In this document: positions 56,003 to 59,687 of the stretch, one piece after another
How positions within the stretch are numbered: position 1 is the stretch's first letter
Layout: the number at the start of each line of letters is the position of its first letter
Assembly: GCA_029935315.1 (NCBI GenBank)
Contig: JAOZKN010000005.1
Location: 1 to 64,000, forward strand
Source of the DNA: Desulfocapsa sp.
GTDB taxonomy: Bacteria > Desulfobacterota > Desulfobulbia > Desulfobulbales > Desulfocapsaceae
Direction of reading: 5' to 3'
Length of the DNA stretch: 64,000 nt
Position numbers and translations under genes: made by a program
The notes under the pieces: generated by a model
What the model saw: only the letters and a program-made list of their open reading frames with translations
What the model was told of the DNA's origin: nothing
Database searches by the model: none

Positions 56003-56890
56003 ATGCAGGAAAGTATAGACAGGGCGAAAGGTTTAATTGAAGCACTTCCTTATATGCAGGAATTTCGTCATAAAACCGTAGTTGTAAAATATGGCGGACA
56101 TGCCATGGTGGATGAAAATCTGAAGAAACAGTTCGCCCTCGATATGATTCTTCTCAAGCATATCGGTGTTAATCCGGTGATTGTGCATGGTGGCGGGCCG
56201 CAAATTAATCAGCTCCTGGATCGTCTGGAAATTAAGCCCAGTTATGTTCAGGGGATGCGTGTCACCGATGGTGAAACCATGAGCGTGGTGGAAATGGTGC
56301 TGGTGGGGAAGGTGAATAAGGAAATAGTGGGCAATATTAACCATTGCGGGGGCAGGGCCGTGGGGCTTTCCGGTCGTGATGGCGATCTGATAATGGCCGA
56401 GAAACTAAAAATCAATAAAAAGAATGATGATGCCTTGAAAGATGCACCGCCTGAGCTGATTGATCTTGGTCGGGTTGGCCAGGTAACCAAGGTGAATGCA
56501 CAGATTCTACAGGCCCTCGATGATAAAGATTTTATTCCTGTCATCGCCCCCGTGGGAGTTGGTGCAGACGGGCAGGCGTTCAATATTAATGCAGACCTTG
56601 TGGCGGGAGCTGTTGCCGGAGAACTCAAAGCGGCAAAACTTATTTTGCTCACCGATGTCGCCGGTGTTCAGGATGCTGAAGGAACACTGCTCAAGTCATT
56701 ACAGCAGAAAGATCTTGAGGGATATATTGCTGAAGAAACCATTGCCGGTGGGATGATTCCAAAGGTGCGTTGTTGTGCCGATGCCCTTCGTCAGGGAGTA
56801 AGCAAAACCCATATCCTGGATGGTCGGATTGAGCATGCTATTCTGCTTGAGATGTTTACCAAAGAAGGAATTGGAACGGAGATAGTCTGA
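56003..56890 (+). CDS. argB: Acetylglutamate kinase
   Basis: [56 protein letters not shown]. Confidence 0.97.
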
Positions 56891-58095
56891 TGAGTGAAGA
56901 AAATAAAAGCTGGGCTGAAAGGAGTGAGAAGGTGTTTATCGGAACCTATGCAAGATATCCTGCGACCATGGTGAAAGGTGAAGGCTGCACACTGACTGAT
57001 GCGGAGGGAAAGGAGTATCTGGATTGCCTGGCAGGGATTGCTGTCTGCAGTCTTGGCCATTGTCACCCGGCAGTGACTGCAGCTGTCTGTACACAGGCTG
57101 CCGAGTTGGTACACGTTTCAAATCTTTATTATACACAACCACAGACAGAGCTTGCTGAACTGCTCACAGAACATTCCTTTGCGGATAAGGTCTTTATGGC
57201 CAACAGCGGAGCAGAAGCCAATGAGGCGGCTATAAAGCTTGCCAGGATTTGTGCCGGTCCTGATCGTTATGGGATTATTTCTTTAGCCGGCTCTTTTCAT
57301 GGTAGGACGCTGGCCACCGTTGCTGCCACCGGCCAGCCTAAATTCCATGAAGGTTTTGAGCCCATGCCGGAAGGCTTTTCCCATGCACCATTTGGTAATC
57401 TGAATGTGCTGGAAGCCATGATCACAGACCAGACCTGCGCCATTCTCTGTGAGCCTCTGCAGGGTGAGGGGGGTGTACGTCTCCTTGAAGTTGAATATCT
57501 GCAGGCAGTGGAAAAACTGTGTCGCAACCATGATCTGCTGCTAATTTTTGATGAAATTCAGACGGGACTGGGCCGTACCGGAACCCTTTTTGCCTATGAA
57601 CAGCTTGGGATTGTGCCGGATATTATGACGGTTGCCAAGGCCCTTGGCAACGGGATGCCCATTGGTGCCATGCTTACCAGAAATGAGATTGCCGCTTTTC
57701 TGGTTCCGGGAACGCACGGTTCAACCTTTGGTGGAAACCCAGTGGCCTGTGCCGCAGCTGTGGCCACCATGAAAATCATGCTGGAAGAGGGATTTTTACC
57801 AGGTGTACAGGAAAAGGGAGAGTATTTGCAGACGGCCCTTGAGGGTCTTGCACAAAAACATCCCGGCCTTGCCACTGGTGCCAGAGGAATGGGGCTTATC
57901 CGTGCTTTGGTGCTGACTGAGGATGGTATTGAAAAGGGTGCAGATATGGTGAAGAAGCTTTTTGATAAAGGGGTTCTTATTAATTTCGCAGGCAATAGTG
58001 TACTTCGTTTTCTGCCACCTTTGATTATTACAAAAGAAGAAATTGATCAGCTGGTAGCGGCCCTTGACGAGGTGTTGATGGAGTGTTCCAGTTGA
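56890..58095 (+). CDS. argD: Acetylornithine aminotransferase
   Basis: MANSGAEANEAAIKLAR; LLIFDEIQTGLGRTGTLFAYE; PDIMTVAKALGNGMPIGAML. Confidence 0.95.
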   Translation: MSEENKSWAERSEKVFIGTYARYPATMVKGEGCTLTDAEGKEYLDCLAGIAVCSLGHCHPAVTAAVCTQAAELVHVSNLYYTQPQTELAELLTEHSFADKVFMANSGAEANEAAIKLARICAGPDRYGIISLAGSFHGRTLATVAATGQPKFHEGFEPMPEGFSHAPFGNLNVLEAMITDQTCAILCEPLQGEGGVRLLEVEYLQAVEKLCRNHDLLLIFDEIQTGLGRTGTLFAYEQLGIVPDIMTVAKALGNGMPIGAMLTRNEIAAFLVPGTHGSTFGGNPVACAAAVATMKIMLEEGFLPGVQEKGEYLQTALEGLAQKHPGLATGARGMGLIRALVLTEDGIEKGADMVKKLFDKGVLINFAGNSVLRFLPPLIITKEEIDQLVAALDEVLMECSS

Positions 58096-58117
58096 TGGTA
58101 TTCAGGGAGATAGGAAT

Positions 58118-58453
58118 ATGAAGATAGATTGGTTGTATCTACGCAAGGGCTGAAAATCATGCACGAAAGCTCAGGAGGCTCTTGAGCAGGCAAAGGTGAA
58201 AGTGGATGAGATTGAGGATGCGCGTAAGAACATAATTAAAGCAGATGGCGCATGGGATATTTTTGCAAAAGCAGAGGCGCTTTCCGTGGGTCGAGGCAAG
58301 AAAGTGCAGACTTTTGTTCCCGATGAATCCAACAAGGAAGAAATATTGAAAGTGTGCCTTGGTCGTACCGGAAATTTGCGGGCACCAACCGTTACAACGG
58401 GGAAAAGTGTGTACGTTGGATATAATGATGCCATGTATCAAGAGTTGACGTAA
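58118..58453 (+). CDS. Predicted ArsC/thioredoxin-like UxxC selenoprotein; in-frame TGA (58151-58153) read as selenocysteine
   Basis: ATG 58118 with upstream gggagatagg; translation MKIDWLYLRKG(U)KSCTKAQEALEQAKVKVDEIEDARKNIIKADGAWDIFAKAEALSVGRGKKVQTFVPDESNKEEILKVCLGRTGNLRAPTVTTGKSVYVGYNDAMYQELT*; SECIS-like hairpin 58169-58187. Confidence 0.85.
58169..58187 (+). promoter_or_regulatory. Bacterial SECIS-like stem-loop
   Basis: GCTCAGGA-GGC-TCTTGAGC: 8-bp stem (one G-U), GGC apical loop about 24 nt after the UGA. Confidence 0.7.
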
Positions 58454-58601
58454 CTGTTCAGCTGCACCCCATCTTTGCCCATTTTGACCTTCTCACATAG
58501 CAATAGTATGTTTCGAATGTCCAAATGAACAAATATGAGGCACATCTGAACAGTTACAGTTCAGTGTTTTGCCAATTATCAGGTATTAGCTGAATAGCTA
58601 C
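58450..58601. mobile_element. 152-bp MITE-like element with IS66-like GTAA end and 8-bp target duplication
   Basis: Ends GTAACTGTTCAGCT and reverse complement GTAGCTATTCAGCT (12/14 identical), flanked by direct repeat GAGTTGAC at 58442-58449 and 58602-58609. Confidence 0.7.
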
Positions 58602-58769
58602 GAGTTGACAAAATAAAATATATGCTGGCTAAAAGTCCAAAAAACTTTGCAAAACCTTTCTCTTTTAGGTAAATATGATTCTTTTCCCCCTGTAATTATG
58701 GCGATTGGGCCTTGGGGGTGCATCTGAAAAGGGTGGCGTTCAAACAAAACCCGTGAACTGATACGAGTC

Positions 58770-59687
58770 ATGTTACACCATTTAGAGTCATTACAGGATT
58801 TTAGTAAAGAAGAACTGCTGGCCTTTATTCATAGAGCCATCACTTTGAAAGAAGAGCGGCTCTCCGGAGTCCGTCATCAGCAACTTGCCGGAAAAACGGT
58901 GGGGATGATTTTTGAAAAGGTCTCCACCCGTACCAGAGTTTCTTTTGAGGCGGCCATGTACGGTCTTGGTGGGCAGGTTATTTTCCTTTCCGGGCGTGAT
59001 ACGCAGCTGGCACGTTCAGAGCCCTTAAAAGACATGGCTCGGGTTATGTCCCGTTATGTTGACGGTCTGGTGGTGCGTACGTTTGGTCAGGAAGTGGTCA
59101 CCGAGCTTGCGAAGTATTCTACTGTTCCGGTCATTAATGCCCTCACCGATCTCCACCACCCCTGTCAGATATTAAGTGATATGATGACCGTGGTTGAGAA
59201 GAAAGGCAATATTGAGGATTGCAAAGTTGCCTGGATCGGAGATGGTAATAATATGGCGCATTCCTGGATTCAGGCCGCGTCGATTATTGGTTTTGAGTTG
59301 GTGCTGGCATGCCCCGAGGGATATGATCCCGATGCAGAAATTTTAGCAGCTGCGCAAGAACAGGGTGCAAAACCTATAACCCTGCTCCGCAGTCCCGAAG
59401 AGGCAATGGTCGGTGCGGATGTTGTCAACACGGATGTCTGGGCCTCCATGGGCCAGGAAGATGAGCAGGAAGAGCGAATGAAGATATTTGCTCCCTATCA
59501 GGTCAACAGTGAACTGATGGCGAAGGCACCAGCAGATGGCATTGTACTTCACTGTCTGCCAGCGCATCGTGAAGAAGAGATAACGGAAACAGTTCTGGAA
59601 TCAGATCAGTGCGTGGCCTTTGATCAGGCAGAAAATAAAATGCATATGCACAAAGCGATACTTGAACAACTGTTGATGACTAAGTAA
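58770..59687 (+). CDS. argF: Ornithine carbamoyltransferase
   Basis: FEKVSTRTRVSFEAAMYGLGG; HPCQILSDMMTV; LHCLPAHREEEI. Confidence 0.97.
   Translation: MLHHLESLQDFSKEELLAFIHRAITLKEERLSGVRHQQLAGKTVGMIFEKVSTRTRVSFEAAMYGLGGQVIFLSGRDTQLARSEPLKDMARVMSRYVDGLVVRTFGQEVVTELAKYSTVPVINALTDLHHPCQILSDMMTVVEKKGNIEDCKVAWIGDGNNMAHSWIQAASIIGFELVLACPEGYDPDAEILAAAQEQGAKPITLLRSPEEAMVGADVVNTDVWASMGQEDEQEERMKIFAPYQVNSELMAKAPADGIVLHCLPAHREEEITETVLESDQCVAFDQAENKMHMHKAILEQLLMTK

Follow-up and report, generated by a model that had tools for sequence, protein, structure and literature searches.

Previously described relatives

Selenoproteins of the type considered here have been reported more than once. A 2026 review lists the "Arsenate reductase-like protein, NF041106, UxxC", with credit for the UxxC arsenate reductase-like family given to the Global Ocean Sampling study (PMC13188914). 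The selenoproteome of that study contains "Arsenate reductase 2" (cd03032) with a UxxC motif (PMC2398784), and an ArsC-like selenoprotein of Desulfotalea psychrophila was already included in an earlier report (PMC1794560). Because of these three listings the NF041106-type selenoprotein family must be regarded as already known.

When the gene described here was compared with NF041106 (ArsC_rel_Se_1), agreement was seen in the full-length match, the UxxC motif, the Sec/Cys interchange and the single-domain organization, and the only differences were its position in an arg operon and the loss of the adjacent rhodanese gene. The motif and the family label also agree with "Arsenate reductase 2" and with the D. 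psychrophila "ArsC-like" protein and, judged by these two features, both probably belong to the same family as the present protein. The novelty therefore lies mainly in the genomic location of the gene and the route by which it got there, the family itself being recognized in databases. The first-pass annotation had called the gene overlooked, which is true of the mechanical ORF track but not of the family.

Reading frame and family assignment

The window (the whole 64,000-nucleotide stretch of Desulfocapsa sp. DNA that was analyzed; all coordinates are on its + strand) contains an open frame from ATG 58118 to a TAA at 58451-58453 (58118-58453; 111 codons plus TAA). The frame is preceded by a likely ribosome-binding site, AGGGAG, at 58104-58109 and interrupted by a single in-frame TGA at 58151-58153. 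This TGA encodes residue 12, the U of a UKSC motif whose Cys15 (58160-58162) is the predicted resolving cysteine, and the read-through product is MKIDWLYLRKGUKSCTKAQ...MYQELT. The first-pass annotation gave the frame, the TGA, the coordinates and the translation exactly, and the mechanical ORF list does, as that annotation had stated, start the gene at an internal GTG (ORF 58196-58453). The case thus illustrates how the catalytic residue can be lost from a selenoprotein when its ORF is called mechanically. When the window was scanned by motif for further frames with a read-through TGA, dozens of candidates were obtained.

The read-through protein matched the NCBIfam model NF041106, "ArsC family (seleno)protein", with 122.7 bits over profile positions 1-107 of 107 (curated cut-off 85 bits), and the UxxC/CxxC motif of that family is present as UKSC. 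The portion started from the GTG reached 77.7 bits, under the cut-off. The guess of an "ArsC-family (seleno)protein", made from the sequence without searches, thus coincides with the NCBIfam name. We conclude that 58118-58453 is a genuine selenoprotein gene with a misplaced start, and not a selenoprotein of a new kind.

Homologues and the selenocysteine position

The family was present in 176 of the 263 genomes of the class, mostly with exactly one internal TGA. In a phylum-wide draw of 247 genomes, 15 scored above the cut-off and all 15 had one TGA. No relative was found in the plasmid records searched. Some of the 114 loci fetched represented the same genome twice, and 109 distinct sequences were retained; the Sec position was TGA in 104 of these, TGT in four and TGC in one, and the five Cys forms clustered together in the tree. 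As the first-pass annotation had expected of a true selenoprotein, the homologues reach beyond the UGA on its upstream side, and Sec or Cys stands at the UGA position.

The segment 58118-58195, whose conservation the same annotation had singled out as a check, is likewise conserved. Eleven residues precede the TGA (MKIDWLYLRKG), and they are identical in close relatives at the protein level while synonymous sites differ. Residues W5, Y7, position 12 (Sec/Cys), S14, A18, G82, G85, LRAP (87-90) and G101 are invariant among 98 homologues. The upstream frame is thus not a chance one, given the synonymous differences under an identical protein and the invariance of W5, Y7, Sec/Cys12, S14 and A18. 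Cys15 is conserved in 97 of the 98 aligned homologues, with Ser in one. One of the Cys forms (L135) reads CASS, its resolving Cys being gone as well.

The bSECIS hairpin

According to the published bSECIS model, an apical loop of 3-9 nt with G in its first two positions sits on a stem of 4-16 bp, and the loop lies 16-37 nt from the UGA (PMC13188914). A hairpin at 58169-58187, with an 8 bp stem, the apical loop GGC (58177-58179) and a UGA-to-loop distance of 23 nt, agrees with all of these constraints, so that the bSECIS search proposed at the outset had a positive outcome. Rfam gave no relevant match over 57900-58900.

The folding energy was compared with synonymous-codon shuffles. A first null, in which the family's own codon choices were shuffled, was weak (mean z -0.85) because such a null retains the hairpin, and local codon usage was taken instead. 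With this null the window hairpin gave z -2.8 (p 0.01), and the 104 UGA homologues gave a mean z of -1.47, with 32% of them at p<0.05, versus a mean z of 0.03 for the five Cys homologues. The hairpin is conserved in the TGA forms only; the Cys forms are without it. Among the 43 sequences whose loop is in the same register as in the window, 91.6% of the stem cells were paired, versus 25-55% when the partner strand was slid, and two-sided changes were seen at four of the eight stem pairs (e.g. U-A to C-G and G-C); such counts lean towards the hairpin because the groups are defined by the hairpin itself, a bias of which the shuffle test is free. Within this one family the apical loop occurs at three registers, starting about 22-23, 24 or 27 nt from the U of the UGA, and the registers are split largely by lineage.

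These observations bear on the reading in which the TGA is a true stop, the gene starting at GTG 58196, or in which the frame is a decaying pseudogene. The mechanical call of 58196-58453 fits a true stop, but the protein is equally conserved before and after the TGA, Cys codons stand in for the TGA in homologues and hairpin conservation is limited to TGA forms. We consider either version hardly credible.

Selenocysteine machinery

In the genome from which the window derives, selA is intact, the N-terminal part of selB is present in a gene cut off by the start of contig C209, and two Sec-type selD genes each carry a TGA at the usual active-site position. A second selB-like match (contig C146) was rejected as EF-Tu-like. 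When the assembly was searched for tRNA-Sec, none was found above the cut-off, and the matches obtained were ordinary Ser, Leu, Arg and Glu tRNAs. A tRNA-Sec above the cut-off was present in 54 of 60 family genomes, and in a genome of the same genus (G103) it lies directly behind glyQ. The glyQ contig of the window genome stops 5 nt past the glyQ stop codon, which is where the tRNA-Sec of the relative begins, so an absence of selC cannot be inferred; the gene most likely falls in the assembly gap behind glyQ. The proposal to look for selA, selB, selC and selD was thus borne out for selA, for selB as far as its contig extends and for selD, whereas the assembly does not contain selC. Taken with the Sec/Cys interchange (104/5) and the bSECIS hairpin, the machinery upholds the earlier claim of a genuine selenoprotein. 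The two selD genes (L051 on G000:C222 and L052 on G000:C225), both with an in-frame TGA, are different genes within one genome.

Fold and predicted activity

The AlphaFold model (pLDDT 95) is thioredoxin-like. Its best PDB match was Spx, followed by ArsC-related proteins and glutaredoxins, all with modest TM-scores near 0.55, and Spx stands closest among solved structures in both sequence and fold. Of the suggestion of an ArsC-like thioredoxin fold, the thioredoxin-like part therefore holds, but the protein is nearer to Spx than to arsenate-reducing ArsC.

With the E. coli-type ArsC arsenate reductase (PF03960; 1i9d), the protein has the superfamily and the general fold in common. The arsenate-binding residues of E. 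coli ArsC are Arg60, Arg94 and Arg107. When positions were mapped via the Spx alignment, the one before the cis-Pro, Arg in both ArsC and Spx, was Ala89 in each of the 98 homologues; variation was seen at the remaining two Arg positions. The substitution of Ala for this Arg makes arsenate reduction unlikely. The protein also differs from E. coli-type ArsC in having a resolving Cys. An arsenate reductase in which Sec replaces the catalytic Cys would be in line with the weak Pfam ArsC match (18.9 bits, under the cut-off of 24) and with the fold likeness to ArsC-related chains. However, in a comparison of profiles no meaningful alignment with E. coli ArsC was obtained, and no ars gene was recognized among the recurrent neighbours examined, and we regard this activity as very improbable.

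A redox-sensing regulator that, like Spx, binds the C-terminal domain of the RNA polymerase alpha subunit would agree with the closeness to Spx, and the protein and Spx/MgsR (TIGR01617) have the thioredoxin-like ArsC/Spx fold and a redox pair at the CxxC position in common. The protein differs in having Sec first in the motif and Ala where Spx has Arg92 before the cis-Pro, and it scored 19.5 bits with the Spx/MgsR model, far under the cut-off of 75.05. The ATGA coupling of family members to an enzyme-like gene (see below) also suggests catalysis, and a regulatory role appears unlikely.

From its sequence features, the protein is very probably a selenoprotein of the NF041106 family acting as a selenol/thiol oxidoreductase, and a Sec/Cys oxidoreductase is most likely, as the most economical functional reading. 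SelB with Sec-tRNA would read the UGA at 58151, helped by the hairpin at 58169-58187, and the product, of 111 residues, would have a thioredoxin fold and belong to the ArsC/Spx branch. Sec12 would be expected to attack the substrate, and Cys15 to resolve the resulting selenenyl-sulfide.

Position within the arg operon

From the ORF list and comparison of operon order, the upstream neighbour is argD (56890-58095) and the downstream neighbour is argF (58770-59687). The selenoprotein ATG lies 22 nt behind the end of argD (58095), and 316 nt separate the gene from argF. Adjacency to arg genes was seen only in the window and in three Desulfocapsa genomes (L009, L010 and L011), and these four group in a single, well-supported clade within the genus. 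Inside the arg operon a rhodanese gene follows in L010 and L009; none is found there in L011 or the window.

Contig C57 of the window genome has kept the FAD oxidoreductase and a rhodanese with UHSG. The order there (L146, G000:C57, reverse strand) is FAD oxidoreductase, selenoprotein 3' tail and rhodanese-rubrerythrin, the last with a TGA at the rhodanese active site. All that is left between the FAD and rhodanese genes is an in-frame tail, CVGYNEEIYRELTG-ATGA, of a homologue of the selenoprotein gene, which matches intact relatives at 26-34 of 41 bases; this indicates that the ancestral copy was deleted and the arg copy retained. The case clearly exemplifies the move of a selenoprotein gene into an unrelated operon, with just a 3' tail left at the old site. 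The place of the gene between argD and argF, for which the first-pass annotation had no explanation, is a lineage-specific relocation accident and does not reflect a role in arginine synthesis.

Genome G111 also retains the ancestral-type rhodanese, away from the arg operon, and in G103 and G110 the sole close rhodanese match is the arg-operon copy. Since G110 (76%) and G111 (83%) are incomplete, complementary losses at the two loci are suggestive only. An imperfect palindrome with 43-nt arms (58450-58557) spans the stop codon; a second copy, 75% identical, is present on contig C82 of the window genome, which gives the palindrome the look of a small repeat or mobile element.

Usual neighbours and possible partners

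Elsewhere in the genus (g1) and in two sister genera, the genes usually stand in the order FAD oxidoreductase, selenoprotein gene and rhodanese-rubrerythrin. In 18 loci the FAD oxidoreductase ends 23-103 nt upstream of the selenoprotein gene, and the rhodanese-rubrerythrin gene overlaps the selenoprotein gene by ATGA. A Sec-containing C-terminal extension past the terminal TGA of the relatives was considered and rejected, the conserved reading there being the start of the overlapping ATGA gene. The FAD protein resembles the N-terminal partner in SelD fusions, although its 268.5 bits with TIGR03169 (Nterm_to_SelD) are under the cut-off of 310; Ndh-SelD fusions have been described (PMC2398784, PMC4561486). 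The rhodanese active site carries U or C (UHSG, URSG, CHSG), so that in many genomes the rhodanese, too, is a selenoprotein. The link to these neighbours is limited to g1 and the two sister genera, and the partners are thus not universal; the selenoprotein gene adjoins a bioF-like gene in family f6 and a comM-like gene in family f13.

Other neighbours could point to oxidative-stress defence with peroxiredoxin, ferritin and rubrerythrin as partners, since in some lineages an AhpC-type peroxiredoxin, a Fur/PerR-type regulator and ferritin are repeatedly found within 4 kb. However, these neighbours differ between lineages and the peroxiredoxin is often on the opposite strand, which leaves such a role possible but rather doubtful. 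As a specific form of the oxidoreductase reading, we tentatively suggest from gene order that the protein might work with the rhodanese-rubrerythrin and the FAD oxidoreductase in reducing persulfide, perselenide or disulfide species.

A more speculative proposal, which we hold to be unlikely as a whole, is that the FAD oxidoreductase, the UxxC selenoprotein and the selenorhodanese-rubrerythrin constitute one module for handling selenium and sulfane sulfur, reshuffled with complementary losses in the lineage of the window. The flavoenzyme would then supply electrons and the ArsC/Spx-like selenoprotein would reduce a rhodanese-bound persulfide or perselenide. Through exchange between the ancestral site and the arg operon, each genome examined would have kept one of each gene. 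For the NF041106 family the gene neighbourhoods offer a testable partner set of flavoenzyme, UxxC selenoprotein and selenorhodanese. Among close relatives (L015, L017, L031, L039, L065-L075 and L087-L094) the ATGA-coupled rhodanese-rubrerythrin alternates between Sec and Cys in its active site.
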